From IMG/VR virus record IMGVR_UViG_3300042507_003525, positions 1-30,789 of that record: DNA of 30,789 nucleotides, one strand, 5' to 3'. This DNA comes from a virus. The notes beneath the pieces are model-generated. The model was not told where the DNA came from. It ran no database searches and worked only from the letters and a program-made list of their open reading frames with translations. How positions within the stretch are numbered: the first letter of the stretch is position 1; each line of letters opens with the position of its first letter. Position numbers and translations under genes: made by a program. This document shows positions 4,861 through 20,500 of this stretch, piece after piece.

Positions 4861-6078
4861 ATGGCATCAAGTTATTCTACAGATCTTAAACTAGAACTCA
4901 TGGTTACAGGCGAGAACGCCGGTACATGGGGAGATAAAACAAATTCAAATTTAAACCTTATTCAACAAGCTATTGCTGGTTATGAAACTATTAACGTTGG
5001 AGCATCTGACGTTACATTAGTAATGTCTAACGCAACACTTTCTAATGCGAGAAATATGATCCTTAATTTATCAGGATCACTTACAGGAAATAGACAAGTA
5101 TTAGTACCAGATGGAATAGAAAAATTTTATATAGTAAGAGACCAAACAACTAGAAATGGACATTCATTAACTATTAAAACTGTATCAGGAAGTGGATTTG
5201 ATATTGAAACTTCTGGTGCATTGGTTGCTTGTTATTCAGACGGAACAAACGTTGTAGAGATATCATTAAATACTTTAACAGGAACAATCGCTACTGCACA
5301 AATAGATAATTTAGCAATAACATCTGCTAAACTTGCTTCATTTGCGGTTACTTCGGCTAGAGTTGCATCATTTGCAGTAACTACTAATAAACTTGCAACG
5401 AATGCAGTTACAGCAGTTAAAATTACTCAATCAACAATTACACAATCAAAACTTGCATCTAATTCTGTTGGTTCAGATCAATTAATTGCAACTGCAGTTA
5501 CTCCAGCAACTTACACATCTGCTACAATTACAGTTGATGCTGATGGTCGTATTACTTCTGCATCTTCTGGATCAGCGGGCGCTGGAATGGGAATACCTAC
5601 TTTATATTCTGTGGGACCAGCATCCGGAACATATACTGCAGCACCAACAGCAAATAGAATAGGTGTCTTCATGTATGGTGGTGGGGGTGGAGGACCGCCA
5701 GGTAACAGTCCAGCGAGAGCGCCAGGTGGGGGTGGTGGATTTGCATTTTTTAATAAACCTATAACACAACCTTTTTCACAACCCTATTCTGTTGGTGGTC
5801 CAGGTCCAGCTCCTGGAGCTGGTGGTAATACTACAATAGCAAATGTAGGCTCTGCTAATGGAGGAGCTGCAGGTCCAAACGGATCTAATTCTTCAGGAGC
5901 TGCCGGCACTACACCAGGTTCGTCTTTTACTTATCCGGTAAGAGATTTTATTGTTGGTGGTTCATTTGGAAACGCTGGAGGAGCGGGAGGCCAGACTGGG
6001 GGAGAATCTCCAACGGGTACTCCTGGAACTACAGGTGCAGGTGGTGTGTTAGTAGTATTTGAAAACACAGGTACTTAA
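4861..6078 (+). CDS. Tail fibre protein with glycine-rich tip
   Basis: A 405-residue fibre. Residues 1-140 form an attachment-type domain that opens with a TGENAGTWGDKTNSNLNLI motif common in marine phage fibres. Residues 140-235 are short alternating repeats (LAITSAKLASFAVTSARVAS...) ending in DADGRITSA, typical of a slender trimeric shaft. Residues 273-400 are extremely rich in Gly, Pro, Ser and Ala with runs such as YGGGGGGPPG and APGGGGGFAFF. That tip resembles the polyglycine-II bundles of receptor-binding adhesins such as T-even gp38, where loops between the glycine runs contact the receptor. An AGGAG ribosome site precedes ATG 4861. Receptor recognition is inferred. Confidence 0.8.
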   Translation: MASSYSTDLKLELMVTGENAGTWGDKTNSNLNLIQQAIAGYETINVGASDVTLVMSNATLSNARNMILNLSGSLTGNRQVLVPDGIEKFYIVRDQTTRNGHSLTIKTVSGSGFDIETSGALVACYSDGTNVVEISLNTLTGTIATAQIDNLAITSAKLASFAVTSARVASFAVTTNKLATNAVTAVKITQSTITQSKLASNSVGSDQLIATAVTPATYTSATITVDADGRITSASSGSAGAGMGIPTLYSVGPASGTYTAAPTANRIGVFMYGGGGGGPPGNSPARAPGGGGGFAFFNKPITQPFSQPYSVGGPGPAPGAGGNTTIANVGSANGGAAGPNGSNSSGAAGTTPGSSFTYPVRDFIVGGSFGNAGGAGGQTGGESPTGTPGTTGAGGVLVVFENTGT

Positions 6079-6079
6079 T

Positions 6080-6523
6080 ATGTCTTATTTTATTTTTTTA
6101 AAAAATTTAGATAATATAGATGGAACTATTTGCAAAATAGCTGAAAATCAATCTGATTTAAATAATCTTAATATTATTCAAACTGATTATAAAATTATTC
6201 AAGATTCTCAAGAAAATTTTGATAGTGTAAAATTAAATGTAAAATATCCATTAAAATATAATGGTGATGTAATAACTTTTAATACTGTACAAAATTTATT
6301 TTTAAAAAATGATTTAGAACAAGAAGTAAATAATTTTAAAATTCAAATTAAACAATTTACTAATAACAATCCTAACCACCCATTATTTAATCGTTGGAAT
6401 AACTATTACAATCAATTAAATACTTTAAATTTAGATAATATAAACTATCCATTAACCATGTCATTAACACAGTATTTTAAAGATTTAGGACAACCTTCAT
6501 ATAATGTTTTACAATTACCTTAA
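6080..6523 (+). CDS. Small protein following the tail fibre, unknown (possible fibre chaperone)
   Basis: I place the start at ATG 6080, one base after the fibre stop, giving 147 residues. An upstream TTG at 6059 lies inside the fibre gene and is less likely. The protein is rich in Asn, Lys and Ile and looks helical in its second half (LEQEVNNFKIQIKQF...). It has no signal or membrane segment. Genes placed directly after tail fibres often encode fibre-assembly chaperones, and the coupling to the fibre gene supports that. No motif confirms it. Base composition is more AT-rich than the fibre gene and like that of the cassette that follows. Confidence 0.55.
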   Translation: MSYFIFLKNLDNIDGTICKIAENQSDLNNLNIIQTDYKIIQDSQENFDSVKLNVKYPLKYNGDVITFNTVQNLFLKNDLEQEVNNFKIQIKQFTNNNPNHPLFNRWNNYYNQLNTLNLDNINYPLTMSLTQYFKDLGQPSYNVLQLP

Positions 6524-6543: not shown

Positions 6544-7299
6544 ATGTTTGATAAAGAGATAGAATTTAGTGCTCACGAAGATTATTTAGCAATTCAAGAA
6601 GATTACCCAATCCCTGCAAAATTTAATATACCTGAATGGTATAAAAAATTAGATCATACTGTTTTAAATAAAACAGTTAAGGGCTGTATGCCATTTTTAG
6701 ATTCTTTAACAGCCGGTTACATTTTAAAAATGCCTCAAGATTTTTACATAAGACATAATATAGATAATGAAAATGAAAAAGGAGAAAAATTTAAAGATTC
6801 TTTTCAGACTTTTGGACTTCATGATCAAAGAGAAATATTATATGCCAAAAGTTTAAATTTAAACTCTGGTGTAGACATTCATCCTCCTAAACAATTAGAG
6901 GGATCTCCTTTAATACATAAAAATAAAAATTTACCATTCTACAAAATTTTAAACCCTTGGAAAATAAAAACTCCAAAAGGATATTCTTGTTTATTTGTGC
7001 CCCCATTAAATAATAGTGATGATAGGTTTTCTATAATACCTGCGATAGTTGATACAGATACTTTTATTGATGAAATAAATTTTCCAATTGTTATAAATGG
7101 AGATAAATATACAGTGTTAGAAGATTTAATTAAAAAAGGGACACCTTATGTTCAGGTAATTCCTTTTAAAAGAGATAAATGGAAGATGAAAACAAAACCA
7201 AGAAAAAGTAAAGAAATTCAAAATGTTAGAGTATTTCATAATTTAAAAGTTATAAATATATATAAAGATAAGTGGTGGAGTAAAAAATCATGGAAATAA
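6544..7299 (+). CDS. Conserved marine-phage protein of unknown function, first gene of cassette 1
   Basis: A 251-residue soluble protein. The opening IPAKFNIPEWYKKL with later TVKGCMPFLDSLTAGYILKMPQDFYI (residues 24-70), then NPWKIKTPKGYSCLFVPPLN (about 136-156) and a GTPYVQVIPFKRDKWKMK stretch near 197-214, form a pattern I recall from proteins of about 250 residues in marine phages. These are usually left as unknown, possibly DUF6065-like. No HxD or H...R iron site, DxD or nucleotide loop is visible. It overlaps the first oxygenase gene by ten bases, so it is probably co-translated with the tailoring enzymes and could be a partner or substrate-handling protein. Confidence 0.6.
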   Translation: MFDKEIEFSAHEDYLAIQEDYPIPAKFNIPEWYKKLDHTVLNKTVKGCMPFLDSLTAGYILKMPQDFYIRHNIDNENEKGEKFKDSFQTFGLHDQREILYAKSLNLNSGVDIHPPKQLEGSPLIHKNKNLPFYKILNPWKIKTPKGYSCLFVPPLNNSDDRFSIIPAIVDTDTFIDEINFPIVINGDKYTVLEDLIKKGTPYVQVIPFKRDKWKMKTKPRKSKEIQNVRVFHNLKVINIYKDKWWSKKSWK

Positions 7300-7859
7300 A
7301 AAATTTTATAAAAATTTATGATGAAGTTTTACCTTGGAATGCAGTCTCTAGTTTAATACGTTTTGCAAATGTTTCAAATTTTGAAGAGGCTAAAATCGGA
7401 GGTGGGGATAAAAATACAACAGATTTTAATGTAAGAAGAACTTATGCATTGCCGTTATCAAATTTAAATAATTCTATTTCAAATGTTCATTGGTTTAATT
7501 TACTACATTCTTATTTTAATAAAAATTTAAAACAATATAAACTAGATGCCAATATTTTAGACTATGATTATCGAAATATTTTTGACATAGAAATTTTAAA
7601 ATATGAAAATACTGGTTTTTATACATGGCATGTAGATCATTTTGCAGCCATTCCAAGAACGATGAGTTGTATATTATTGTTAAATAATGATTATGAAGGT
7701 GGAAATTTGTGTTTTAGAAATCCAGATGGCTCTGGAGAATGGGAAGTAGAGGTTAAACCAAATAGAATGATAATTTGGCCAAGTAATTTTTTATATCCTC
7801 ATACGGTTAAACCAGTAACGAAAGGGACAAGGTATTCAGTAGTAGCATGGGCACTATAA
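7290..7859 (+). CDS. 2-oxoglutarate/Fe(II)-dependent oxygenase (prolyl-4-hydroxylase-like)
   Basis: A 189-residue enzyme with a complete double-stranded beta-helix signature. Two iron ligands come from HVD (H114, D116) after GFYTW, the third from H171 in YPHTVKPV, and the 2-oxoglutarate-binding arginine is R181 in KGTRYSVV. Between them EGGNLCFRNP (136-145) is the usual strand-turn. Such enzymes hydroxylate proteins, nucleobases or small molecules using oxygen and 2-oxoglutarate. Similar PKHD-type proteins are frequent in cyanophages and pelagiphages with unknown substrates. It starts inside the preceding gene and ends inside the next one, so the cassette is translated as a coupled series. 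Fold and cofactor are well supported; substrate is unknown. Confidence 0.85.
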   Translation: MEIKNFIKIYDEVLPWNAVSSLIRFANVSNFEEAKIGGGDKNTTDFNVRRTYALPLSNLNNSISNVHWFNLLHSYFNKNLKQYKLDANILDYDYRNIFDIEILKYENTGFYTWHVDHFAAIPRTMSCILLLNNDYEGGNLCFRNPDGSGEWEVEVKPNRMIIWPSNFLYPHTVKPVTKGTRYSVVAWAL

Positions 7860-8392
7860 AAGATTTTAAATATAAATTAATTAAAAATTTCTTATCTAAA
7901 GAAGAAATTAAATTATTAAATGATTACTGTAGAATCAAACACAGATTAAATTATGATTCTTTTGATTTTGTTCAAAACAATAATGGAGATACTTATTTTT
8001 ATGGAGACCCATTAATGGAATCTTTAATGGTTAATAAATTAGAATTAATGCAGAAAGAAACTGGTTTAGAATTACTACCTACTTATGCTTTTTGGAGAAT
8101 GTACACAGTTAATGCCGATTTAAAAAAACATAGAGATAGACCTGCTTGTGAAGTAAGTGTTACTGTAATGATAGGATCAGATAAAACACCATGGTCAATA
8201 TACATGGATGGAACAGAAATTAATATGGAACCTGGTGATGCTGCAGTATATTTAGGATGTGAAGTAGAACATTGGAGAGAAGAGTTTAAAGGTGATTGGC
8301 ATGCACAAACATTTTTACATTATGTTGATAAAAATGGAAAAAATAAAGAATGGTTTAAAGACAAAAGAACATTGTATGGAATATCAAAATAA
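7847..8392 (+). CDS. Second 2OG/Fe(II) oxygenase-like protein
   Basis: A 181-residue protein starting 13 bases before the previous stop. The first iron motif is HRD (H95, D97) in DLKKHRDRPACEVSVTVMIG, and the third ligand is probably H142 in LGCEVEHWREEF. The segment NMEPGDAAVYLG (126-137) is the turn before the last strands. The residue that usually holds 2-oxoglutarate, an arginine about ten positions after the last histidine, is not clear; the local sequence is GDWHAQTFLHYVD, so H152 or Q154 occupies that area. It may therefore use a different anchor or be altered in function. Fold call is good, activity less sure. Confidence 0.75.
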   Translation: MGTIKDFKYKLIKNFLSKEEIKLLNDYCRIKHRLNYDSFDFVQNNNGDTYFYGDPLMESLMVNKLELMQKETGLELLPTYAFWRMYTVNADLKKHRDRPACEVSVTVMIGSDKTPWSIYMDGTEINMEPGDAAVYLGCEVEHWREEFKGDWHAQTFLHYVDKNGKNKEWFKDKRTLYGISK

Positions 8393-8954
8393 GAAAGAAT
8401 TTTTTTTTGAAAAACCAATGCTATTGAACACGTTTATTTTAATAAATGAAATTGAAGAAATTTCTTTAATAGATAAGCTTATAGAAGTTTCAAGGAAACA
8501 TTTACCGGACTCTGTCATATCTAATCTCACAAATGTTAAAGCGCAACATACAAATTTTCACTCTTTAAATCTTTGTCCGGAGTTTCATGAATTTTTAAAA
8601 AAAATAAAAAAAGATATTTTTAAAATTTATCCTTTTAATTTTTCAATAAATTCTTCATGGACTAATTTTTATGGAAAAACAAAAACAGACCATGCACAAG
8701 AACATAGTCATAATGGCACTACCGCATTCTGCGGGATACTTTATTGTACTGATGGACCTGGACCGGGAACGTATTTTAGCCAATACGATATAAATGTTAA
8801 GGAAAAAAAAGGTAGGTTTATTTTATTTCATCCATTGTTGTTGCATAGTGTGCAAGAATTTAATTATCAATCAGAAAGAATAACTATTGCTTTTAATATG
8901 GATGAAGTTAAAAGTTGGAATTATGCAAATAATTCTATATATTCTATAAAATAA
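8376..8954 (+). CDS. Third 2OG/Fe(II) oxygenase, HxH-type (2OG-FeII_Oxy_5-like)
   Basis: I choose ATG 8376, which overlaps the previous gene by 17 bases as elsewhere in this cassette, giving 192 residues. An upstream GTG at 8292 would reach deep into that gene; ATG 8418 is a possible later start. The protein has SWTNFYG, then the iron site EHSHNGTTAFCGILY (H110 and H112), then GRFILFHPLLLHSV with H157, and SERITIAFN with R168. This order matches the oxygenase family in which the first motif reads H-x-H. Substrates of this family are mostly unknown. The gene is extremely AT-rich. It is clearly a relative of the oxygenase at 15740 but has diverged. Confidence 0.75.
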   Translation: MEYQNKKEFFFEKPMLLNTFILINEIEEISLIDKLIEVSRKHLPDSVISNLTNVKAQHTNFHSLNLCPEFHEFLKKIKKDIFKIYPFNFSINSSWTNFYGKTKTDHAQEHSHNGTTAFCGILYCTDGPGPGTYFSQYDINVKEKKGRFILFHPLLLHSVQEFNYQSERITIAFNMDEVKSWNYANNSIYSIK

Positions 8955-8963
8955 TATAAATTT

Positions 8964-9623
8964 ATGATTATTTTACTTTTTTCAGGGGGTGTTGAAAGCA
9001 CAGTGTTGTTAAAATATTTTTTAAAAGACACAAATAAGTTAATACATGTTTTATTTAATAAATTACATTACGATGATGTTCATGGTCTAAAATATGTAGA
9101 ACAAAACAAAACAGTTGACAATATATTAAATTATTTTAAAAAAAATTACAGAGATTTTAATTTTAGTTCGACTGAATTAAAATTAAATAATGTTAATAGT
9201 GTGCAACAAGAGGCAAATGGTTTTGGATACGATGAACAATGGAATATATTTTTTGCAACTATATATGCTAAACTTTTTGGTATTAAAGATATTTGGCTTG
9301 GTGAATTTACTTATTGTAATATTCATTCTACAATAACTAGAGGTTTTCCTGCATTTTGGTTTCATAATGGTACTTTAGAAAAATATGCTTTAGCTGGAAC
9401 AATGTTTGATTTTAACTTCTATAAAGATTTAAAAATTAATTTTCCATCGAAAAATTTTAATAAAACAGGAATAGATTCATTTAAATCTAAAAAAGAAGCT
9501 TTTCAATATTTAGAACCGGAACTTCAAAAAATGGTAAGATCGTGCGAAGGAAAAGAAAAATTTTGTGGACAATGCGGTAAATGCAAACAATATAAAACAC
9601 TTGAGATAGTAAATGAAATTTAA
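8964..9623 (+). CDS. QueC-like PP-loop ATP-pyrophosphatase with zinc cysteines
   Basis: A 219-residue protein of the N-type ATP-pyrophosphatase fold. The ATP loop is SGGVESTV (residues 7-14), and a C-terminal zinc site is formed by C194, C201, C204 and C207 (C-x6-C-x2-C-x2-C). That combination and length are those of QueC, which converts a carboxylate to a nitrile in 7-cyano-7-deazaguanine synthesis. The usual Asp in SGGxDS is Glu here, and the zinc spacing is one or two residues shorter than I recall for QueC. No QueD, QueE, FolE or transglycosylase partner is in the window. It may therefore be a ligase or amidase-type relative working on the cassette's own substrate. Confidence 0.7.
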   Translation: MIILLFSGGVESTVLLKYFLKDTNKLIHVLFNKLHYDDVHGLKYVEQNKTVDNILNYFKKNYRDFNFSSTELKLNNVNSVQQEANGFGYDEQWNIFFATIYAKLFGIKDIWLGEFTYCNIHSTITRGFPAFWFHNGTLEKYALAGTMFDFNFYKDLKINFPSKNFNKTGIDSFKSKKEAFQYLEPELQKMVRSCEGKEKFCGQCGKCKQYKTLEIVNEI

Positions 9624-9831
9624 ACAATATGAAAATGGTTCTTGCGATATAGAGTTTTCTTGGAAAGAAAGATTTTTACTTTTTAGAAAAGGAAAATTAC
9701 ATTTTTCTGATGAAAATTTAAAACATTTTGGAAATCATCTTGTTAAGATGGTAATGGACTGGCAAATAAAGTTTAATGAAAAAACAATAAATTTACAGAC
9801 AAAAGAAAACACGGAAATAAAAAGTGAATGA
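9613..9831 (+). CDS. Small protein between QueC-like and carbamoyltransferase genes, unknown
   Basis: A 72-residue protein that overlaps the QueC-like gene by 11 bases and the carbamoyltransferase gene by 4 bases (ATGA). It is polar, with aromatic residues in the first half (FKQYENGSCDIEFSWKERFLLF) and a Lys/Asn/Glu-rich end. It has no membrane segment or known motif. Its tight placement suggests co-translation with the two enzymes, perhaps as an accessory or carrier-like subunit, but there is no phosphopantetheine-type serine motif to support a carrier role. Confidence 0.5.
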   Translation: MKFKQYENGSCDIEFSWKERFLLFRKGKLHFSDENLKHFGNHLVKMVMDWQIKFNEKTINLQTKENTEIKSE

Positions 9832-10757
9832 AAATTCTAGGAATAAATATTTCTCACGATTTTTCAATATGTGTTTACGAAAATAAAATTATTAAAGAAA
9901 TATATTTTGAAGAAAGGTTTGTCCAAGAAAAAAATTTTATTGTTCAAAACAAAGAAACTTTTTACAATTGTATATTTAAAAAAATAAATTTTAAACCAGA
10001 CATTGTTGTTTATTCAAGTTTTCAAAGATTATTAGACAATGAGATTAAAGATGAACAAATCATTCAACAAATTCAAAAACAATTAGATAACCCAGTCTAT
10101 TATTTTAATAAAAAAAATCATCATATATATCATGCCTGCTCTTCTTTTTTCTTTTCAAAATTTGAAGAGGCTATGTCTATTGTTATAGACGGTGGAGGAG
10201 CATGTCCGTTAGAACGAAATTATAGAGAAATACAATCTATATTTTATATAAATAAAAAAAATATTTATACAATTTTTCAACACTTATCAAACTATAAATC
10301 TCTTTTATTACCTAAAAATTTCGAAGACGAATATTCAAATTTAATAACTAATATTTATAAAAAAGGAATTGAATTTTATTGTTCTTCTTTATGTATTGGA
10401 GGATTAGATTTTATAAGAGCTTGTAGTAAAATAAATTTAAAAAATGAACCAGGTAAATTAATGGGTCTAGCATCTTATGGATCAAGTAAACAACCTTACA
10501 ACTTAGATTATAACAATGTAGACGTAGCTAAAAAAATTCAAGAAAAATCTTTTAAAGAAACTTGTGTGTTAATTGAAAAAGCTTATAACTATAAAAAAAT
10601 TAAAAATTTTGTTTTATCTGGAGGCTATTTTTTAAACTGTAGTAATAACTTTAAATACGTTAAAAAGTATCCTGAATTTAATTTTTTTGTAGATCCTGAT
10701 CCTTCTGATGGGGGAACAGCTTTAGGAGCTTGTGTTTATTATGATTCTTATAAATAG
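9828..10757 (+). CDS. Carbamoyltransferase, N-terminal (YgjD-like) half of a split enzyme
   Basis: A 309-residue protein matching the N-terminal domain of the TobZ/NodU carbamoyltransferase family. Landmarks are SHD (9-11), the HH...H metal site (H98, H99, H102), DGGG (121-124), GKLMGLASYG (209-218), SGGYFLN (264-270) and DPDPSDGGTALGA (289-301). In these enzymes the domain makes carbamoyl-adenylate from carbamoyl phosphate and ATP and hands the group to a hydroxyl on the acceptor. The gene stops right after the last motif, where single-chain relatives continue into the C-terminal domain. That domain is in the next gene, in another frame, with a 17-base overlap. Confidence 0.85.
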   Translation: MKILGINISHDFSICVYENKIIKEIYFEERFVQEKNFIVQNKETFYNCIFKKINFKPDIVVYSSFQRLLDNEIKDEQIIQQIQKQLDNPVYYFNKKNHHIYHACSSFFFSKFEEAMSIVIDGGGACPLERNYREIQSIFYINKKNIYTIFQHLSNYKSLLLPKNFEDEYSNLITNIYKKGIEFYCSSLCIGGLDFIRACSKINLKNEPGKLMGLASYGSSKQPYNLDYNNVDVAKKIQEKSFKETCVLIEKAYNYKKIKNFVLSGGYFLNCSNNFKYVKKYPEFNFFVDPDPSDGGTALGACVYYDSYK

Positions 10758-11268
10758 TATTGAAGAAGCAATTAATGTTTTGTTAGATCAAAAACCTTTG
10801 GTTATTTTTCAAAACCATAGTGAATGGGGTCCTAGAGCTTTAGGTAATCGTTCTATTTTATTTGATCCTAGAAATGCAGACGCAAAAAATATTGTTAATA
10901 CTTTTAAAAAAAGAGAATGGTGGAGACCACTAGCAGGAACTGTTTTACTTGAATATGTTCATGACTGGTTTGATATAGCTACACTAAAAGAATCTCCCTA
11001 TATGAGTTTTGCAGTGGATGCTAAACAACAAGCCATTGAAAAGATACCTTCTATTGTTCATGTAGATAATACCTGTAGAATTCAAACTGTTACAAAAGAA
11101 CAAAATTTAAATTATTATAATCTTATATTTGAGTTTTACAAAAAAACAAATGTTCCAGTATTATTAAATACTTCTTTTAATTTAGCTGGTTTTCCAATAG
11201 CTGAGACATTAGATCAAGCTAAATATGTTTGCAATGTTTCAGAGTTTAAATATTTATATACTCCCTAA
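10741..11268 (+). CDS. Carbamoyltransferase, C-terminal half of a split enzyme
   Basis: I choose ATG 10741 (175 residues) over GTG 10732. The protein is the Carbam_trans_C domain: HSEWGPRALGNRSI (26-39), KKREWWRPLAG (56-66), HVDNTCRIQTV (107-117) and VLLNTSFNLAG (140-150). It lies one frame away from the N-terminal half and overlaps it by 17 bases. All family motifs are kept in both parts, so the pair is likely to form one active enzyme from two chains rather than a dead gene. The linker found in single-chain enzymes is short or absent. A sequencing frameshift or programmed slippage would give a fused chain of about 480 residues instead. It ends cassette 1. Confidence 0.8.
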   Translation: MILINSIEEAINVLLDQKPLVIFQNHSEWGPRALGNRSILFDPRNADAKNIVNTFKKREWWRPLAGTVLLEYVHDWFDIATLKESPYMSFAVDAKQQAIEKIPSIVHVDNTCRIQTVTKEQNLNYYNLIFEFYKKTNVPVLLNTSFNLAGFPIAETLDQAKYVCNVSEFKYLYTP

Positions 11269-11307: not shown

Positions 11308-11315
11308 GCCTTATG
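11295..11315. repeat. Inverted repeat around the -10 box and start codon
   Basis: CATAAGG and CCTTATG are perfect 7-base complements separated by TATAATG. The loop contains the -10 box, and the right arm includes the ATG at 11313. It can act as a cruciform or operator in DNA, or as a hairpin covering the start codon in read-through RNA from the cassette. Confidence 0.6.
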
Positions 11316-13469
11316 CCTTTAAAGAAGATACCATTAGCCCCTGGCTTTGATAAACAAGATACTGCATCCCAAGCAGAAGGTCGTTGGATAGATGGAGACT
11401 ACGTTCGTTTTCGTTATTCAAATCCTGAAAAAATAGGAGGATGGCAACAATTATTACCTGAGTTATTAGTAGGTTCTGCCAGAGAACAGTTTATTTGGTC
11501 AGATCTTAAGGGAAATCGTTATGCAGCCATTGGCACAAATAAATTATTAGTTATTTATTTTGAAGGTCAATATTATGATATTACACCACTGGACACTCCA
11601 TTAACAAGCTGTACTTTTACATCTACTACTGGATCTGCAACAGTTACAGTTAATAAAGCAGGACATGATTTAGAAATTGGAGACATTATTAAACTGACCT
11701 CTGTGTCTCTTCCTGGTGGAGGGGTTACTACTTATACAACTTCTGATTTTACAACTAATTTATTTGAAGTACAAACAACACCTAGTTCTGGTACTTTCAC
11801 TATTACAATGCTTACAAACGAAGCTGGAACTGGAATGACAGCTCAAGGTTCTGCAACAACTAATCCTTATTATAATTTTGGTCCATTTGGTCAAACTTAT
11901 GGATATGGTTATGGTACAGCTAACTGGGGTGGATTTAGTTCAACAGTTACTCAAAATCAATTAAATGGATCTATTGATAATTCTCAAGCAACTATTACAG
12001 TTGATTCCACAACTGGTTTTCCAGCGTCAGGTACAATATTAATTGATTCTGAATTAATTACTTATGCTAGTAAAAACTCAACTCAATTTTTAACGTGTGT
12101 TAGAGGAGTTGAAGGAACAACAGCCACTTCTCATAACGACAATACAAAAGTTTATGATGCGGATACATTTGTAGGATGGGGACAATCTTCTTCAGTTCAA
12201 ACTCCTATTAGATTAGATCCTGCATCTTGGTCGTTAGATAATTTTGGAGAAATACTAATTGCTACAATGCATAATGGTCCTACATTTATTTGGGATCCTA
12301 CAAATACTGGTCTTGGAGGAAGAGCAACAATTAATACTAATATGCCTATTAAATCTGTAATGACTATTGTTTCAGACAGAGATAGACATGTAATTCATTT
12401 AGGAACGTGTACTACAATTAGTAATGGTGCAACTCAAGATAAAATGTTTATTCGTTTTTCTGATCAAGAAGATTATGATATCTATCAACCTACATCAACG
12501 AACACCGCTGGAACATTTAGACTAGATGATGGAACTAAAATTATAGGAGCTGTTAAAGCTAAAGATTATATATTAATTCTTACAGATAGTGCTGCATATA
12601 CTATGCAATTTGTTGGTCCTCCTTATACTTTCACTATTAGAAAAGTAGGATCTAATTGTGGTTGTTTAGGTCAACATGCAATTGTTTTTGCACAAGGTGC
12701 CGTATGGTGGATGGGTGATTCTGGCGGATTCTTTGTTTATGACGGTACGGTAACTTCTGTTCCTAGTTTAGTAGAAGATTATGTTTTTTCAACTACTGGA
12801 TTTGAAAATCCTGGTCTTAATTATAATGCAGATGAAATAACTTATGCTTCTCATAATAGTTTATTTACAGAGGTAACTTGGTTTTATGCAGATGCTTCAT
12901 CTTCTAATATTAATAGATATGTAACTTATAACTATGGTGAAAAAGTTTGGACAACAGGAACTATGGCAAGAACTACTTATGCAGATGCAAGTGTTTATGA
13001 TTTACCTCATGCAACTAAATATGATCCAAACGTTACTCCAACATTTCCAGTAGTCAATGGTGTGTCTTCAGGAGCAACTTATTACTATGAACATGAAATT
13101 GGAGTAAATGAAGTAGATTCAACAGGAGCTAAAACTGCGATACCTGCATACATTAGATCAGGGGATTTTGATTTAGATGTAGATGGAGATGGCCAGTATT
13201 TCCTAAAACTTAATAGATTTATACCTGACTTTAAAAATTTAGAAGGTAATGTAAAGGTCACTTTATTTTTAAGAAGCTATCCTGCCGACACAACAACGGC
13301 CAAAGGACAAACAACGATTGGTCCTTTTACTATAAATTCTGATACAGATAAAATAGATACTAGAGGAAGAGCAAGATTAGCTAGTATTAAAATAGAAAAT
13401 GATGCTATAGATGAGACTTGGCGTTATGGAATATTTAGAGTAGACATACAACCAGATGGAAGAAGATAA
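11313..13469 (+). CDS. Tail nozzle / needle-base protein, P22 gp10-like
   Basis: A 718-residue protein. It opens with a marine-phage motif (LAPGFDKQDTASQAEGRWIDG and VRFRYSNPEKIGGWQ). The C-terminal half has the beta-propeller pattern of P22 gp10-type nozzle proteins: SDRDRHVIHLGT, IRFSDQEDYDIYQP, DDGTKIIGAVKAKDYILILTDS, MQFVGPPYTFTIRKVGSNCGCLG and GAVWWMGDSGGFFVYDG. Residues about 95-300 hold extra Thr/Gly-rich inserted beta domains, which explain a length well above P22 gp10 (about 470). The protein would join the adaptor ring to the tail tip and hold DNA in the head. A promoter and an inverted repeat precede it; it couples by TAATG to the next gene. Confidence 0.7.
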   Translation: MPLKKIPLAPGFDKQDTASQAEGRWIDGDYVRFRYSNPEKIGGWQQLLPELLVGSAREQFIWSDLKGNRYAAIGTNKLLVIYFEGQYYDITPLDTPLTSCTFTSTTGSATVTVNKAGHDLEIGDIIKLTSVSLPGGGVTTYTTSDFTTNLFEVQTTPSSGTFTITMLTNEAGTGMTAQGSATTNPYYNFGPFGQTYGYGYGTANWGGFSSTVTQNQLNGSIDNSQATITVDSTTGFPASGTILIDSELITYASKNSTQFLTCVRGVEGTTATSHNDNTKVYDADTFVGWGQSSSVQTPIRLDPASWSLDNFGEILIATMHNGPTFIWDPTNTGLGGRATINTNMPIKSVMTIVSDRDRHVIHLGTCTTISNGATQDKMFIRFSDQEDYDIYQPTSTNTAGTFRLDDGTKIIGAVKAKDYILILTDSAAYTMQFVGPPYTFTIRKVGSNCGCLGQHAIVFAQGAVWWMGDSGGFFVYDGTVTSVPSLVEDYVFSTTGFENPGLNYNADEITYASHNSLFTEVTWFYADASSSNINRYVTYNYGEKVWTTGTMARTTYADASVYDLPHATKYDPNVTPTFPVVNGVSSGATYYYEHEIGVNEVDSTGAKTAIPAYIRSGDFDLDVDGDGQYFLKLNRFIPDFKNLEGNVKVTLFLRSYPADTTTAKGQTTIGPFTINSDTDKIDTRGRARLASIKIENDAIDETWRYGIFRVDIQPDGRR

Positions 13470-15340: not shown

Positions 15341-15489
15341 TGTTTTACATATGGCATACTTTAATAGTAATTCTATTCCTAGCTTTTTCATTTTATTTAG
15401 GATATAGATTTGGTAAAAAAAATAAAGAATACAAAATTACCTATGAAGAAAAACCAAAAATAGGAAAATGTCCAATGGGGTTTAACTAA
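15337..15489 (+). CDS. Small single-pass membrane protein, 50 residues
   Basis: ATG 15337 overlaps the preceding stop by four bases (ATGA) and TAA 15489 overlaps the next ATG by one base. Residues 2-22 form one hydrophobic helix (MFYIWHTLIVILFLAFSFYLG) followed by a basic and polar tail with one cysteine (C45). The positive YRFGKKNK stretch after the helix suggests that the C-terminus stays in the cytoplasm. It could be a pinholin-like, spanin-like or superinfection-related peptide, but nothing in the sequence decides between them. Confidence 0.65.
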   Translation: MMFYIWHTLIVILFLAFSFYLGYRFGKKNKEYKITYEEKPKIGKCPMGFN

Positions 15490-15740
15490 TGGCTGAAGAT
15501 ATAAAATTAGAAGATCAATATATAAAAGGTTATGAAACAATAAATGGGGAACAAGTACCTATTATTAAATGTCCTACAAAAGTAACTATTAAAAATAAAG
15601 TTACTGGGGCAGTATATGAATCAGAAGAAGCTGCTAAGGCAGATATAGCTAATCCAAATACACCTACAAAAGAAGAACATATCTCTAGAGATGTCGCAAT
15701 AACAGTTGCACATTTAGCTTTATTTGGTAGAAGTAAGTAA
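15489..15740 (+). CDS. Small conserved phage protein, unknown function
   Basis: An 83-residue protein joined by TAATG overlaps to the membrane peptide before it and the oxygenase after it. The middle has a strand pattern (EQVPIIKCPTKVTIKNKVTGAVYESEEAAKAD), and the end is a helix with HISRDVAITVAHLALFG. No membrane segment, metal site or nucleotide site is seen. I recall similar short proteins in marine phages without function. It closes the structural block before cassette 2. Confidence 0.6.
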   Translation: MAEDIKLEDQYIKGYETINGEQVPIIKCPTKVTIKNKVTGAVYESEEAAKADIANPNTPTKEEHISRDVAITVAHLALFGRSK

Positions 15741-16357
15741 TGAAAGATTTAAACCATATTGGAATAAATCATGAGTATCTTCCTGTAGATTTATTTAATA
15801 AACTTAAAGAACAAATAAACGTTTACAAGGGTAAAGTTGGTAATCAAAAAAATTTAGCTGGAAATATTAGAGAAGAATGGAATTTAAATGATTCAGTTCC
15901 ATTATTTAATGATTATGTTCTTAATTTAATAAATAAACACCCAAGTCATTTAAAATATTTAAAAACAGAAAGTAAAAAATTTTTTTTTGAAAATAGACTT
16001 CCTCCATTAAGATTGCTAAATCTATGGGTTAACTTTCAAAAAAAACATGAGTTTAATCCCATGCATAACCACGCTGGTTTATTTACTTTTGTCATATTTA
16101 TTCAAATACCTTATTGCATAGAAAGAGAACTTAAAGAAGGGCCTGGAGTATTAGGTAATTCAAATTTTGCTTCTTGCTTGCAATTTCAAACAACAAATCA
16201 TTTAGGAAGGTACTTTGATCAAACTGTTCCTGTAGATAAATCATACGAAGGTGGTATTTATTTTTTTAATGCAGAAACCATGCATTGCGTTTATCCTTTT
16301 TTCACTTCAGATGATTATAGAATAACGGTATCTGGAAATATAGGATGGTACAATTAA
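15740..16357 (+). CDS. Fourth 2OG/Fe(II) oxygenase, HxH-type
   Basis: A 205-residue enzyme of the same broad family as the one at 8376. It has LLNLWVNFQKKHEFNPMHNHAGLFTFVIFIQ with the iron site at H109 and H111, then GGIYFFNAETMHCVYPF with H182, then DDYRITVSGNI with R194. The N-terminal 90 residues are helical and probably form the usual cap. It overlaps by one base the gene on each side, including the glycosyltransferase at 16357, so its product may act on the same glycan or acceptor. Cofactor and fold are supported by motifs; substrate is unknown. Confidence 0.8.
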   Translation: MKDLNHIGINHEYLPVDLFNKLKEQINVYKGKVGNQKNLAGNIREEWNLNDSVPLFNDYVLNLINKHPSHLKYLKTESKKFFFENRLPPLRLLNLWVNFQKKHEFNPMHNHAGLFTFVIFIQIPYCIERELKEGPGVLGNSNFASCLQFQTTNHLGRYFDQTVPVDKSYEGGIYFFNAETMHCVYPFFTSDDYRITVSGNIGWYN

Positions 16358-17292
16358 TGAATCCAAGAGGTGGTACTGAGTTACAACTAGAGTTTTTAGA
16401 AAAACACGTAGATAAAAAACTATTAAACGAATTTCAAATAACAACTTCAGTTCCTGAAAAAATACCTTTACACCCTACTAAAATTAATATTCTTTGGCAA
16501 AAGAATTCTTATGATCAACCTAATTTAGCACCATGGTTTCAAGATAAATCTAATCATAAAAAATATGATTGGTATGTATTTAATAGCCATTGGAACTATG
16601 AAAAATTTAGATACAAATTTGATATACCAACAGAGCGATGCACTGTTATAAAAAACGGAGTAGTTAGATTTCCTAAAAGAACTATTTCATATCAAAAAGG
16701 TGAGCCCGTAAAACTTATATATCATCCAACTCCCTGGAGAGGATTAAGTGTGTTATTAGCAGCAATGCAACATATTAAAAATCCTTTAATTACTTTAGAT
16801 GTGTATTCATCTACTCAAGTATATGGAGATGCTTTTAAAGCAGCTAATGATGATGAATATAAACCTCTATATGATCAAGCAAGACAACTACCTAATGTAA
16901 ATTATATTGGATATAAGCCTCATGAATATATTTTAGAACATTTAAAAGACTATCATATATTTGCATATCCAAGTATTTGGGAAGAAACATTTTGTATATC
17001 TGCATTAGAAGCAATGGCTGCAGGATTATATACAATTGTAACTGATCTTGGTGCTTTATATGAAACATGTTCAGAATGGCCTATCTATGTTCCTTACGAA
17101 AAAGATTTTTACAAATTAGGAGAACAATTTGGAGCAGCAATTGAATCTGCAGTAGAACATTTACATGAACCTCATTTACAAAAACATTTAAATGAACAAA
17201 GTAAATTTGTAGATTATTTTTATAATTGGGATAAACAAGGTAATCAATGGACTAATTTTTTAACAGGAGCATTAAATGCAAGACTCAAGTAA
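16357..17292 (+). CDS. GT-B glycosyltransferase (GT4-like)
   Basis: I choose ATG 16357, which overlaps the oxygenase stop by one base; ATG 16345 would overlap it by 13. The 311-residue protein begins at MNPRGGTELQ, where GGTE is the nucleotide-sugar loop normally found some 10-20 residues into GT4 enzymes, so the first strand is trimmed. The C-terminal half has WRGLSVLLAAM (127-137), a VNYIGYKPH strand and the E-x7-E donor motif IWEETFCISALEAMAAG (207-223; E210 and E218), then VTDLGALYE. It transfers a sugar from a nucleotide-sugar donor. A soluble enzyme, coupled to the next glycosyltransferase by a 17-base overlap. Acceptor not known. Confidence 0.85.
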   Translation: MNPRGGTELQLEFLEKHVDKKLLNEFQITTSVPEKIPLHPTKINILWQKNSYDQPNLAPWFQDKSNHKKYDWYVFNSHWNYEKFRYKFDIPTERCTVIKNGVVRFPKRTISYQKGEPVKLIYHPTPWRGLSVLLAAMQHIKNPLITLDVYSSTQVYGDAFKAANDDEYKPLYDQARQLPNVNYIGYKPHEYILEHLKDYHIFAYPSIWEETFCISALEAMAAGLYTIVTDLGALYETCSEWPIYVPYEKDFYKLGEQFGAAIESAVEHLHEPHLQKHLNEQSKFVDYFYNWDKQGNQWTNFLTGALNARLK

Positions 17293-18094
17293 ACCAATAT
17301 GGGTTAATAAAAAAGAACTACCCAAACTAGAAATAGAAGTTAAACCTTATTCTATATTTGTAGCAACACCAGTTCATTCTGATGTTTCTATTCATTATAC
17401 ACAATCATTATTAGAGTTTCAAAAAGACTGTTTTATGAATAAAGTTAAAACACAATTTCAAATTATGAAATCTTCTTTAGTAACTCAAGGAAGAAATTTA
17501 TGTGTAGGTGCTTTTTTAGAATCTAAAATGACTCATATGTTATTTGTAGATTCCGATATTGATTTTCAATCAACCTCTATATTTAAAATGGTAGCGTTAG
17601 ATAAAGATGTAATATCTATTCCTTATCCATTAAAAATAATACGTTGGGATAAAATACTAGAAAATGTTCAATCAGGAAGATTTAAAACAGCCAATGATTT
17701 GGCTACAGGAGGCATGACTTATCCTATGAAATTACCAGATGAAAAAAGTATTAAAGTAGATAAAGGAGTTATAGAAGTAACACATTCTCCAACTGGATGT
17801 ATGTTAATTAAAAGATCTGTATTTGAAAAAATGATGGAAAAATATCCTAACTTAAGAATTAGCCAACCTACTGTTATCAATGGAGAGTTAATAGAAAAAC
17901 CATTTTTATATAATTTTTTTGATACAATGTTTGATGAAGAAAAACATCAGTATTTAGGTGAAGATTATGCGTTTTGTAAACGTTGGAGTGACATTGGTGG
18001 TAAATGTCATGCCTATGTCAATGACATAATTTCACATATTGGCGAATTTCAATACTGCGGAAAATTCATAGACGAGTTGATAATTGATAAGTAA
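17276..18094 (+). CDS. GT-A glycosyltransferase-like protein with DxD motif
   Basis: A 272-residue protein. SIFVATPVHSDVSIHYTQSLL (26-46) is the opening of a GT-A Rossmann-like fold. A helix SSLVTQGRNLCVGAFLESKMTHMLFVDSDIDF leads to the metal and nucleotide-sugar site D92-S-D94. Later, SPTGCMLIKRSVFEKM (171-186) and LGEDYAFCKRW (227-237) match the acceptor and base-catalyst region of family-2-like enzymes. It lies directly after the GT-B enzyme, so two different sugar-transfer steps are encoded together. Similar proteins occur in cyanophages. It is the last gene of cassette 2 and is followed by an inverted repeat. Confidence 0.8.
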   Translation: MQDSSKPIWVNKKELPKLEIEVKPYSIFVATPVHSDVSIHYTQSLLEFQKDCFMNKVKTQFQIMKSSLVTQGRNLCVGAFLESKMTHMLFVDSDIDFQSTSIFKMVALDKDVISIPYPLKIIRWDKILENVQSGRFKTANDLATGGMTYPMKLPDEKSIKVDKGVIEVTHSPTGCMLIKRSVFEKMMEKYPNLRISQPTVINGELIEKPFLYNFFDTMFDEEKHQYLGEDYAFCKRWSDIGGKCHAYVNDIISHIGEFQYCGKFIDELIIDK

Positions 18095-18114
18095 AATGTT
18101 AATATTTTAACATT
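18095..18114. repeat. Inverted repeat after cassette 2 (possible weak terminator or processing site)
   Basis: AATGTTAA and TTAACATT are perfect 8-base complements around the loop TATT. It starts right after the stop of the last glycosyltransferase. The stem is AT-rich and has only ATTTAAA after it, so a strong terminator is unlikely; an RNA-processing or protein-binding site is possible. Confidence 0.5.
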
Positions 18115-18136
18115 ATTTAAACAGGAGCTCATAAAT

Positions 18137-19180
18137 ATGCCAGTTTGGCTTTTACCAGCATTAATCAACTTTGGAATATCAAAGGCTATGGGTGCATCTA
18201 CAAAGAATGCATTATTAAGCTCTGCTGCAGCAGCTGTATTACCAGGGGCAGGGGGAGGAACTTCAGCTCTTTCAGGTGGTGCCGGTGGCGGTATAGGATC
18301 TTTATTTGCACAAGGTGCAGGTCCAATTGGTATGTCTCAAGTATTACAACAAGGTCTTCCTCAATTATTATCTAGAGGAAATCCTTTAGCATATGCAGGA
18401 ATGCAATTTGCTGGTCAACAATTGTTTCCAGGAAGCACACCAGGAATAAAAGAAATGGGTGATGCTAGAGTAGCCGAACAAGTTGCTAATCAAAGCAAAG
18501 GAATGTTTGGAGGAATAACAGATATGATTCCAAAATCAGTTAGAGATTTTGCAACAAGTGATATTGGAAAATTTACTTTATTATCTACAGCTGCTCCTCT
18601 TGTAAAAGGAATTTTTAGTGGTGACGATAAACAAACAATGAATTTACCTTTACCAAATCAAGGATATTCTCGATTAGTTAAAGAAGGTGTTTTAGGACCT
18701 ACTTCATTTATGAGAAGAGATTATACAACAGGACAAGATGTTCCTTTAGAAGATAGAGAAACATATAGAGTTGTTGAAGATGTATTAGGAAATGAACCTA
18801 CACAAAAATTTAAAGCAATAGAATTAAATCAGGGTGGAATAGTAAGTGTTGCAAAATTTAATGAAGGTGGGCAAGTATTGCCGTCTAAATATACTCATGA
18901 CGAAAATGATATAAACAATTATGCTAGAGCAAATGGTTTTGTTATTGATGGCAGTGGTAATGGTGAAGATGAAAAAGATACCATGCTTGCACAACTTGCT
19001 GATGGAGAATTTGTTTCAAGAGCACATGCTGTACTAGGAGCTGGTATTATAGCAGGTGCTAATATTAATGATAAAAACGACCAAAGAAAAAAAGGAGCAG
19101 AATTCTTTTATGAACAACAAAAACGTTTTAAAAGAGTTTATGAATTATTAGATGCAAGCAGAAAAGCTACAAGACATTAA
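18137..19180 (+). CDS. Internal / ejection-type virion protein
   Basis: A 347-residue protein with AGGAG before ATG 18137. The N-terminal 100 residues are rich in Ala, Gly and Leu (LLPALINFGISKAMGAS, LLSSAAAAVLPGAGGG) and could insert into a membrane. Two short motifs LNQGGIV (230-236) and FNEGGQV (241-247) follow a polar middle, and the C-terminal region has DTMLAQLADGEFVSRAHAVLGAG (281-303). I recall that last motif from large phage virion proteins (pattern ...ML-x-GEFV...AV-x-GAG). It precedes a GNAT-like gene and three larger ejection-type proteins, as in T7-like late regions. Role in DNA ejection is inferred from context. Confidence 0.6.
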   Translation: MPVWLLPALINFGISKAMGASTKNALLSSAAAAVLPGAGGGTSALSGGAGGGIGSLFAQGAGPIGMSQVLQQGLPQLLSRGNPLAYAGMQFAGQQLFPGSTPGIKEMGDARVAEQVANQSKGMFGGITDMIPKSVRDFATSDIGKFTLLSTAAPLVKGIFSGDDKQTMNLPLPNQGYSRLVKEGVLGPTSFMRRDYTTGQDVPLEDRETYRVVEDVLGNEPTQKFKAIELNQGGIVSVAKFNEGGQVLPSKYTHDENDINNYARANGFVIDGSGNGEDEKDTMLAQLADGEFVSRAHAVLGAGIIAGANINDKNDQRKKGAEFFYEQQKRFKRVYELLDASRKATRH

Positions 19181-19616
19181 AAAAGGTGTAGATATAATAC
19201 CTATTCAACCTAAGGAAGTTGAAAGTGTTTGGCATTTAGTTCATTTTATGATTGCTGAAGCATTAAAGTTTAGTGGTCAATATGCTGAACCACATCATGT
19301 TAAAGAAATGTTAATAAAAGGAAATATGCAGTTATTTATTATGTATGGTTCTGAAGATGGAGAAACAAATAAAGTATTTGGCTGTTGCACAACAAGATTA
19401 TTTAACAATCCTAATTTTAAAGAATTACAAGGATTAATTTGTACTGGAACTAGAATGCATTTATGGGAAAGTAAGTTAATTGAAACATTAGAATCTTTTG
19501 CTAAATTAAATGATTGTAAAAGAATTAATGCATTAATGAGACCTGGTTATAAAAAAGTTATGCCTAAATATGGATATAAAATTAAACATTACGAATTTCA
19601 AAAGGAGTTAAACTAA
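19152..19616 (+). CDS. GNAT-fold protein, T7 gp13-like position
   Basis: A 154-residue protein that starts 29 bases inside the previous gene. The pattern is that of a small GNAT fold: N-terminal helix (VESVWHLVHFMIAEALKFS), strands LFIMYGSEDG and VFGCCTTRLFN, helix WESKLIETLESFAKLNDC and the final ALMRPGYKKVMPKYGYKIKHYEFQKEL segment, which matches the end of acetyltransferases. The acetyl-CoA loop (Q/R-x-x-G-x-G/A) is not convincing. In T7-like phages a small protein of this kind, gp13, precedes the internal virion proteins. Here too it stands before ejection-type genes, so an assembly role rather than catalysis is quite possible. Confidence 0.6.
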   Translation: MQAEKLQDIKKGVDIIPIQPKEVESVWHLVHFMIAEALKFSGQYAEPHHVKEMLIKGNMQLFIMYGSEDGETNKVFGCCTTRLFNNPNFKELQGLICTGTRMHLWESKLIETLESFAKLNDCKRINALMRPGYKKVMPKYGYKIKHYEFQKELN

Positions 19617-20500
19617 TGGGTATTTTTGGTGGCGGCGGTGGAGGTGGCGGCGGGCAATCAATGCCTGATGTTACTACTCAATTTGTAAGAGAAGCACCTG
19701 GTATTGAAGAACGTAAGATTGGTTTAATGGATGTTGCTAGATCATTAGCTGAAAAACCAATTGACATTCCTGCATTAAATGTTCAACCTTTATCAGGATT
19801 AGAACAACAAGGAGTAACTGCTGCTGGACAAACAGGTGTTGGAGCACCTACTACTCAAGCAGGTATTGGATCAATATTACAAGCACAAGCAGGTCCTAAT
19901 ATTTCTCAATTTTATAATCCATATCAATCATATGTATTAGATGAATTAAATAGACAATCTGCAATGCAACAAAATCAATTAGCTGCACAAGCAGTTCAAT
20001 CTGGTGCATTTGGTGGAGGAAGACAAGGAGTTCAAGCTGCTGAACAAGAACAAGCAAGATTAAGAGCATTGGGATTAGCACAAGCACAAGGTTTTCAAAC
20101 TGCATTAGGTGCTGCACAACAACAGCAACAAGTTGGATTACAAGCAGGATCTCAATTAGCTAATATTGGTCAAATGCAACAAGGAATGGCACAGCAAGAT
20201 ATTAATCAATTAATGGCTGCGGGTGGATTACAAAGACAACTTGCACAACAAACAGCAGATGCAGCAAGACAAACAGAATTGCAAAGAGCATACGAACCAT
20301 ATCAACGTGCAGAGTTCTTAAAAAATTTATATGCAGCTGGACCTACAACTCAATCTGCAATTACTCAAACTACTCAACCTGGTACAAATCCATTAGCACA
20401 AGCTGCTGGAGCTGGATTAGGTGCATACGCAACTTATTCATTATTAAATAGACAACCGGCTGCCATTCAAAGTGCTGCTGCCAACGCACCAAGAGCATAG
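19616..20500 (+). CDS. Ala/Gln-rich internal virion protein
   Basis: A 294-residue protein. It opens with a polyglycine run (MGIFGGGGGGGGGQ). From about residue 95 it has a long helical Ala/Gln-rich region, NPYQSYVLDELNRQSAMQQNQLAAQAVQSGAFGGGRQG and then many AQ-rich turns up to about residue 235. The C-terminus has a short hydrophobic glycine segment, PLAQAAGAGLGAYATYSLL. The SGAFGG-R-QG motif is one I recall from marine podovirus internal proteins. Low complexity and helix content suit a protein that unfolds through the tail and refolds in the cell envelope during ejection. It overlaps the GNAT-like gene by one base. Confidence 0.65.
   Translation: MGIFGGGGGGGGGQSMPDVTTQFVREAPGIEERKIGLMDVARSLAEKPIDIPALNVQPLSGLEQQGVTAAGQTGVGAPTTQAGIGSILQAQAGPNISQFYNPYQSYVLDELNRQSAMQQNQLAAQAVQSGAFGGGRQGVQAAEQEQARLRALGLAQAQGFQTALGAAQQQQQVGLQAGSQLANIGQMQQGMAQQDINQLMAAGGLQRQLAQQTADAARQTELQRAYEPYQRAEFLKNLYAAGPTTQSAITQTTQPGTNPLAQAAGAGLGAYATYSLLNRQPAAIQSAAANAPRA

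Follow-up and report, generated by a model that had tools for sequence, protein, structure and literature searches.

The locus between tail fibre and nozzle genes

The sequence analysed is a 30,789-base virus fragment (IMG/VR record IMGVR_UViG_3300042507_003525; hereafter the window). At positions 6544–11268 it carries a block of eight genes, which lies between a tail fibre gene with a glycine-rich tip and the gene for a nozzle-like virion protein. All eight open reading frames (ORFs) were verified; they are on the + strand, overlapping or closely spaced, in DNA with a GC content of ∼25%, and the flanking structural genes are more GC-rich. The initial annotation had listed here an unknown protein, three 2-oxoglutarate (2OG) oxygenase-like proteins, a QueC-like PP-loop protein, a small protein and a split carbamoyltransferase, and both the ORFs and the family assignments confirm this list (Table 1). 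It had also located the block downstream of the tail fibre genes and ahead of the gene for the nozzle. The position is right but the unit is larger, as it consists of the fibre, a companion protein encoded in the interval before U1, and the enzymes.

The companion gave no family in Pfam and PHROG searches and is possibly a fibre chaperone. Read from its GTG, OX3 shares 101 bases with OX2; translation more probably begins at an ATG, either at 8376 or at 8418. The start of CTC is probably the ATG at 10741, which overlaps the CTN stop. The window belongs to the HTVC023P-type pelagiphages, as indicated by a short DNA match of 89% and by synteny of island and nozzle with HTVC023P gp59–72.

Table 1. 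Features of the island and its surroundings in the window
Feature	Position	Strand	Remarks
Tail fibre with glycine-rich tip	4861–6078	+	phrog_31104 and tail-fibre phrogs
Fibre glycine-rich tip, proposed substrate	∼residues 234–405, nt 5560–6075	+	Up to 29 glycines per 100 residues
Companion protein (fibre–U1 interval)	6059–6523	+	Probable ATG start 6080; syntenic in nearly all islands
U1, core gene	6544–7299	+	phrog_7084, 2e-46
OX1, 2OG-Fe(II) oxygenase, core gene	7290–7859	+	PF13640, E = 3e-18
OX2, putative oxygenase of predicted prolyl-hydroxylase fold, core gene	7847–8392	+	phrog_2954, 5e-49
OX3, PF13759-type oxygenase, accessory	8292–8954	+	PF13759, 1.2e-7; HxH...H...R
PPL, QueC-like PP-loop ATPase with C-terminal Zn-type Cys cluster, accessory	8964–9623	+	PF06508, 2.9e-4
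SM, 72-residue conserved protein, near-core	9613–9831	+	Present in 114/122 islands
CTN, N-terminal Kae1-like half of TobZ/NodU-type carbamoyltransferase	9828–10757	+	PF02543, 6e-12; phrog_1601
CTC, C-terminal half of carbamoyltransferase	10732–11268	+	PF16861, 9e-53
NOZ, nozzle-like virion structural protein, right border of island	11313–13469	+	phrog_3287, 7e-78
Second, related cassette: small ORF, OX4 (PF13759), glycosyltransferase group 1, Anp1-like glycosyltransferase	15489–18094	+	
Hsp20-like and SNF2/helicase genes, right end of window	27250–29192	−	

A constant frame with exchangeable genes

Relatives of the locus were collected using U1, the carbamoyltransferase, the nozzle gene, PPL, OX1 and an oxygenase subfamily termed c0-2 as baits. 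The island set consists of 122 non-redundant contigs, sampled through U1, that span the entire stretch from U1 to the nozzle gene. A constant frame was seen, in the order fibre, companion, U1, OX1, OX2, SM and nozzle, with the nozzle gene as the constant right-hand neighbour. U1, OX1 and OX2 were present in every island, which for U1 follows from the sampling, and SM was present in nearly all. Sixteen islands have only this core quartet, and the same frame recurs in distant relatives. As the gene order is repeated in more than 100 non-redundant contigs, the island is neither a chance arrangement nor an assembly error.

Within the frame, genes are exchanged at three slots (OX1–OX2, OX2–SM and SM–nozzle), producing 78 arrangements in the 122 islands. 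The accessory families include c0 (46 islands), OX3 (40), c1 (28), c3 (13), c4 (11) and PPL (10). A carbamoyltransferase is found in about 32 islands (19 fused, 14 split) and the c2 glycosyltransferase in 15. By Pfam, many accessory genes are further 2OG or JmjC oxygenases (PF13759, PF13640, DUF6445, JmjC_2); others encode a DXD glycosyltransferase, a sulfotransferase, a CmcI-like O-methyltransferase or Trp-type flavin halogenases (PF04820, E ≤ 7e-80). Oxygenase-like genes average 3.8 per island, where families c1 and c11, which have no Pfam match, were scored as oxygenase-like on motifs alone.

Some accessory genes travel together. PPL was found solely alongside OX3 (10 of 10, p = 6e-6); c4 (p = 5e-7) and the split carbamoyltransferase (p = 1e-4) also accompanied it more often than expected by chance. 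The fused carbamoyltransferase lies immediately 5′ of OX3 in seven islands. The window's eight genes are one draw from a swappable library. The single oxidise-then-carbamoylate pathway proposed in the initial annotation does not survive this exchange of gene content between 78 architectures, and the co-occurrence check that accompanied it shows the exact set to be rare: PPL is in 10 of the 122 islands, the split carbamoyltransferase in 14 and both in only 6.

An accessory oxygenase covaries with cysteine in the fibre tip

The fibre tip is conserved in 107 relatives, with P253, P352-G and N333 quasi-invariant. For comparison of cysteine content, the tip was defined as the last 175 residues of the fibre. 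Where the island contained c0-2, a PF13759-type oxygenase subfamily of the swapped c0 family, the tip always contained a cysteine (23 of 23 carriers); where c0-2 was missing, this was the case in only 6 of 91 islands (p = 6.5e-19). An association was already present for the entire c0 family prior to the subfamily split (p = 1.3e-9). When 13 accessory subfamilies were each tested against the 20 residues (260 tests), c0-2 with cysteine ranked first (p = 4e-20) and was the sole combination to stand out.

The position and context of the tip cysteine vary between phages, mostly within glycine-rich loops. Therefore, it is not a single inherited allele. On a tree built from U1, OX1 and OX2, c0-2 changes ∼19 times; among 19 independent pairs, 17 supported the link, none opposed it and two were ties (p = 1.5e-5). 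Nearest-neighbour comparisons agreed. Cysteines in the companion, two other tail proteins, SM and NOZ did not track c0-2, and U1 and OX1 have slightly fewer cysteines when c0-2 is present. The link was replicated in new HTVC023P-type contigs, where 7 of 7 c0-2 carriers had a tip cysteine. The cultured phages HTVC023P (in which c0-2 is gp66) and HTVC033P likewise have c0-2 together with cysteine in glycine-rich fibres, which are gp59–62 in HTVC023P and gp62 and gp64 in HTVC033P; HTVC008M, Mosig and S-T4 have no match at the level of c0-2, and 0–1 fibre cysteines.

A distant set of 50 loci from other viruses, fetched by c0-2 alone and with no core detected, gave a comparable picture. Cysteine was present in 61 of the 62 glycine-rich ORFs upstream of c0-2 (median 20 per 1000 residues, and frequently 10–25 in a single ORF) and in one of the six downstream.

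As a separate observation, large glycine-rich fibre-like ORFs (roughly 300–940 residues) with 3–25 cysteines each lie upstream of c0-2 in loci L277–L338. Among marine viruses, these cysteine-laden ORFs represent an unusual class of adhesin.

Since separate genes encode the enzyme and the residue, the simplest reading of the c0-2/cysteine link is that of an enzyme and its substrate. The link is one-sided, in that c0-2 implies cysteine, as expected if a virion tip can, for the most part, bear or profit from a cysteine only where that cysteine is processed. The covariation could also arise from linkage alone, with enzyme genes and fibre alleles travelling together as modules in a recombination hotspot and the cysteine hitchhiking. 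One part of a 2014 study describes marine phage tail-fibre regions as hypervariable islands and counts Fe(II) oxygenases among the host-recognition island genes, with no mechanism stated there (PMC3909814), and c0-2 is also associated with lower tip glycine; both fit with hitchhiking. Nevertheless, the tip cysteine differs in position and context among c0-2 carriers, c0-2 is usually separated from the tip by ∼2–3 kb that include core genes, the same link is seen in unrelated viruses whose fibres differ, and the other swapped genes show no comparable residue link. We therefore consider linkage alone unlikely.

For c1, c2, c3, c4, c5, c8 and c9, no convincing residue partner was found after phylogenetic pairing or correction. 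The carbamoyltransferase was associated with the tip motif RxFxxG, seen in 21 of 28 tips with the enzyme and 12 of 83 without (raw p = 6.7e-9). After correction for how many patterns were tried, the association more or less holds, the independent pairs divide 11 to 1 (p = 0.006), and the window tip has an instance, TYPVRDFIVGG. We treat this link as a lead.

The core proteins

OX1 has the features of a 2OG-Fe(II) protein hydroxylase, namely the HxD...H iron triad, a distal arginine and a family match, and its HxD...H...R pattern is conserved in 152 sequences. A profile search of the PDB returned PKHD hydroxylases, collagen prolyl 3-hydroxylase 1, EGLN1 and bacterial prolyl 4-hydroxylase (P4H), at 1e-10 to 3e-8, suggesting that OX1 resembles protein prolyl hydroxylases.

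OX2 keeps an HxD...H pattern in 147 sequences but was linked to the hydroxylases by fold comparison alone: it had no Pfam match, its profile gave only noise against the PDB (E > 0.3), and hhalign found no match to OX1. The AlphaFold model has a predicted local distance difference test (pLDDT) score of 96.6, and its best Foldseek matches were P. putida P4H (3e-8) and PHD2 (3e-7). OX2 is thus a putative 2OG-type oxygenase with a predicted prolyl-hydroxylase fold. The first half of phrog_3531 matches OX2 and the second half OX1, like an OX2–OX1 fusion, a make-up that is consistent with a common substrate for the two.

In many cyanophage and pelagiphage records, OX2 homologues (phrog_2954/3531) are labelled ‘ferrochelatase’. 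We rejected ferrochelatase as an identity for OX2, given that it has no Pfam match and that the top structural matches of its model are prolyl hydroxylases, and the public name looks wrong on this basis. The name also bears on the published interpretation for this phage group, in which 2OG oxygenases and ‘ferrochelatases’ would change host iron and heme use during infection (PMC9599517); the 2OG oxygenase of HTVC027P has similarly been discussed in connection with host iron uptake (PMC12753301). A role in host metabolism sits poorly with an OX2 that has no Pfam ferrochelatase similarity and a modelled prolyl-hydroxylase fold, with the invariant placement next to the fibre and with the covariation of enzyme and tip. 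We regard it as very improbable.

U1 was modelled with AF2 at a pLDDT of 90, and its top PDB matches in Foldseek were dUTPases (4e-4). Five of eight members of the U1 family match DUF6065 (PF19541; best 7e-7), although the window U1 itself does not. U1 is probably a distant DUF6065 relative, and its model has a dUTPase-like beta fold; the likeness to dUTPase is at the level of the fold only, as the RSS and C-terminal motifs are absent from the invariant columns when inspected by eye. U1 homologues in haloarchaeal viruses (L002, L369 and L370, which are HRTV-15, HF2 and HSTV-2) lie 2–3 genes from an adhesin with 40–48% glycine, and the parts of these stretches that were read have no annotated oxygenase. 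U1 may be a factor for glycine-rich tips that predates the oxygenase core. In two other contigs from marine viruses, L107 (8483–9235) and L108 (2736–3491), a U1 relative lies directly 3′ of a fused carbamoyltransferase and adjoins a gene that, by eye, is ThyX-like. SM gave no family in Pfam and PHROG searches and has no relatives among cultured phages.

The accessory enzymes of the window

OX3, OX4, c0 and c8 share an HxH...H motif, which we take to be the PF13759 pattern. PPL scored 20.9 bits against the QueC family PF06508, just below the 22-bit cut-off. It has both QueC features, the PP-loop motif (LFSGGVES) and C-terminal Zn-binding cysteines (CX6CX2CX2C), and the SGGxxS motif and the four cysteines are invariant in 11 of 11 sequences. 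No QueD-, QueE-, FolE- or tgt-like neighbour was seen among the scanned proteins of this incomplete genome, for which no dedicated search was run. PPL has no relatives in cultured phages, and none among solved structures by profile.

Together, CTN and CTC have the TobZ/NodU-type composition of a Kae1-like N-terminal domain, a C-terminal domain and the catalytic motifs. HHxxH, DGxG, GPRALGNRS and CRiQT are conserved in 34 homologues, and CTN carries HHxxH, DGxG and SGG. The split is identical in all 14 contigs that carry it, with a +1 overlap and an ATG within the last codons of the first half, so that a sequencing error was rejected as its cause. From the sequence, the enzyme appears to be made as two subunits with coupled translation, although programmed frameshifting could also operate at this junction. 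The initial reading of the block as a tailoring cassette that is tied to the tail genes and has its active sites intact is supported. The motifs of OX1, OX2, PPL and the carbamoyltransferase are conserved across homologues.

The initial annotation had left the substrate open between base, glycan and virion protein. For DNA hypermodification, the oxygenases would yield hydroxymethyl bases, either in a TET/JBP-like manner or via a hydroxymethylase, and the carbamoyltransferase would carbamoylate them, compare 5-carbamoyloxymethylcytosine. A phage carbamoyltransferase of this type does carbamoylate 5-hydroxymethylcytosine (5hmC) in DNA (PMC8670742), some HTVC023P-type clades have thymidylate synthase and hypermodification genes (PMC9599517), and the dUTPase-like fold predicted for U1 could be seen in the same light. 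The annotation had noted that the window has no methylase, which proves little by itself in a fragment; partner genes were judged on eight relatives of 42–62 kb, including the complete cultured HTVC023P and HTVC033P. Neither PF00303 (thymidylate synthase/hydroxymethylase) nor PF00145 (C5-methyltransferase) had a match in these eight. In the study of 5-carbamoyloxymethyl-deoxycytidine, the carbamoyltransferase is paired with a thymidylate synthase in the modified contigs only (PMC8670742). Furthermore, the island genes form part of a tail operon, the likeness of OX1 and OX2 is to hydroxylases of proteins, the swapped halogenases, sulfotransferase and JmjC-type enzyme are ill-suited to one base, and the tip-cysteine covariation would be left unexplained. 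DNA is thus disfavoured as a substrate, to the point of being improbable, and a virion protein, the glycine-rich tip, is favoured.

The targets of the enzymes might instead be sugars, in a glycan of the virion or in the surface polysaccharide of the host, and not the side chains of amino acids. Glycosyltransferases are present in 15 of the 122 islands and in the second cassette, and the TobZ/NodU-type, Rhamnosyl_O-MT/CmcI, Gly_transf_sug and GT1 families work on sugars. The carbamoyltransferases of unmodified contigs are flanked by group 1 glycosyltransferases (PMC8670742). However, oxygenases make up the majority of the island genes, the core lacks a glycosyltransferase and is all that 16 islands contain, and the c0-2/cysteine link concerns a protein residue. 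In the window, no glycosyltransferase lies within 6544–11268; the two that are present are in the second cassette, at 16345–18094. Glycan tailoring is, in our judgement, an unlikely account of the island. A mixed scheme, in which the tip is hydroxylated and then glycosylated, is a possible variant of tip modification.

The second cassette lies downstream of NOZ and reaches 15489–20500 when unknown ORFs are counted. In relatives, this site swaps c0, c1, c5, c9 and carbamoyltransferase families with the first island. Several other genes in or near related islands were noted. Flavin-dependent tryptophan-halogenase genes lie inside islands at L111:8144–9601, L156:4595–6163 and L157:1057–2652, and HTVC008M has one beside the terminase (L187:275–1669); the island halogenases may point to a natural protein substrate for marine viral halogenases. 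Some islands have a compact sulfation-like module of a sulfotransferase, an adenosine-phosphosulfate (APS)-kinase-like P-loop protein and a nucleotidyltransferase (L078:7021–7767, L076:7400–7789, L022:6841–7197 and L151). One tailoring island contains an ORF of 480 residues that, by eye, is like a sodium/solute symporter (L117:6431–7873).

Proposed function of the island

We propose, with a probability of roughly 0.72, that the island is a combinatorial protein-tailoring unit that acts on the glycine-rich, receptor-binding tip of the fibre and not on DNA. This proposal builds on what was computed: the gene order, the intact motifs, the folds, the combinatorial exchange and the tight covariation of c0-2 with tip cysteine.

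The core quartet, U1, OX1, OX2 and SM, would presumably be co-expressed with the fibre late in infection and would hydroxylate the glycine-rich tip, with OX1 and OX2 acting on proline, most likely at the conserved P352-G or P253. The swappable accessory enzymes would then add phage-specific chemistry on other residues of the hypervariable tip loops. In many relatives, c0-2 would be a cysteine-directed oxygenase. In the window phage, OX3 might oxidise a second residue and the carbamoyltransferase cap a hydroxyl. The AMP-forming enzymes of the PP-loop class suggest that PPL, as a ligase/amidase-like enzyme, may introduce a group of the amidine or amide type. A sulfotransferase, glycosyltransferase, O-methyltransferase or flavin halogenase would act in their place in other relatives. 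The outcome would be a receptor-binding surface with chemistry outside the 20 amino acids. The phage might gain in host range, in receptor chemistry or in escape from counter-adaptation by bacteria. The existence of the modification, the residues targeted by OX1, OX2, OX3, PPL and the carbamoyltransferase, and the benefit are all matters that we infer.

A number of observations weigh against this proposal. Covariation is not chemistry, and tip modification is deduced from sequence. The window island itself lacks c0-2, and its lone fibre cysteine lies outside the tip; the c0-2 argument extends to the window because of the common island organisation. A tip cysteine without c0-2 occurs in the 6 of 91 islands given above and in 4 of 8 non-carriers of the small new set. 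OX3, used as a negative control, was also weakly linked to cysteine (7 to 0, p = 0.016), probably due to its frequent co-travel with c0-2. No residue partner of OX3 or PPL survived phylogenetic pairing, and the carbamoyltransferase/RxFxxG link was not replicated in the small new set (3 of 5 versus 3 of 10, p = 0.33). In the putative oxygenase OX2, the HxD...H motif and the predicted fold are present and the 2OG-binding basic residue was not pinpointed; the OX2 homologue of P-SSM7 is located among replication genes. Nor is a glycine-rich tip a strict requirement, since in some viruses these oxygenases adjoin fibres of other types, and in the nozzle-baited sample a glycine-rich protein occurs in 2 of 15 contigs that lack the oxygenases.

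We also considered a rule that the oxygenase core occurs only with the glycine-rich fibre. In the nozzle-baited sample, this association was just moderate (15 of 23 versus 2 of 15, p = 0.0025), because other fibre types have adjoining oxygenases too. In favour of the proposal, oxygenase clusters adjoin the tail fibres in other phages (HTVC008M, Mosig, HTVC033P and S-SCSM1).

The chances are about even that the islands are a novel diversification system, in which a hydroxylase core is combined with a hot-swappable enzyme library and enzymes and tip residues evolve as matched pairs. If so, receptor binding would be diversified chemically, beyond sequence alone, in phages of the most abundant ocean bacteria. 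Genes for 2OG oxygenases are common in marine phages, being found in 76 of 153 cyanophage genomes (PMC10452541), and are so far unexplained and classed as metabolic. If the islands tailor the tip, many of these ‘auxiliary metabolic genes’ would be host-recognition machinery, the ‘ferrochelatase’ annotation would fall, and ocean phage–host specificity would have a chemical layer that is unseen in the fibre sequence. The islands also offer protein-tailoring enzymes with candidate peptide substrates encoded adjacently, and HTVC023P and HTVC033P, cultured on strain HTCC1062, allow the key prediction to be tested.

Comparison with known systems

The initial annotation knew of no described system with this exact gene set, and none was found in the literature searched. 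In open-access literature, we found no report of tail-fibre hydroxylation, of enzyme–residue covariation or of a combinatorial tailoring island. The oxygenase cluster was already known (PMC9599517); what appears to be new, within the open-access literature searched, is the tip as substrate. We rate the kind of system as new because the hallmarks tested for DNA carbamoylation, ferrochelatase and virion glycosylation were absent, the chemistry itself being predicted.

The closest study concerns the same phage group and the same genes. Wittmers et al. (2022) described eight non-orthologous 2OG oxygenases in HTVC023P-type pelagiphages, where one or two ‘ferrochelatases’ invariably adjoin an oxygenase, and treated them as auxiliary metabolic genes tied to iron and heme (PMC9599517). 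The words ‘carbamoyltransferase’ and ‘sulfotransferase’ are absent from its main text. Here, by contrast, OX2 is modelled with a prolyl-hydroxylase fold, the genes from fibre to nozzle are arranged as a fixed core with slots for exchange, and the occurrence of one enzyme tracks a residue of the fibre tip. The 5hmC carbamoyltransferase system (PMC8670742) has in common a phage-borne enzyme of the TobZ/NodU type, whereas the relatives of the window lack a thymidylate synthase or hydroxymethylase partner, and the enzyme is here split and located among tail and oxygenase genes.

OX1 by profile and OX2 by predicted fold match protein prolyl hydroxylases (bacterial P4H, EGLN/PHD2, PKHD/PiuC and collagen prolyl 3-hydroxylase). 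Characterised prolyl hydroxylases act on proteins, some of them on Gly-Pro-rich collagen-like sequences. In contrast, the OX3, c0, c8 and OX4 families bear HxH rather than HxD, and the island substrate is putative. In phage virion glycosylation and in the hydroxylation and glycosylation of mimivirus collagen, virus-encoded enzymes modify a structural protein of the virus; in the islands, most of the chemistry would not involve glycans, and the set of enzymes varies combinatorially through exchange. The protein scan showed no reverse transcriptase. Diversity-generating retroelements diversify the receptor-binding tip of tail fibres, and the islands would have a similar effect, but by varying chemistry through enzymes rather than by varying the DNA sequence.

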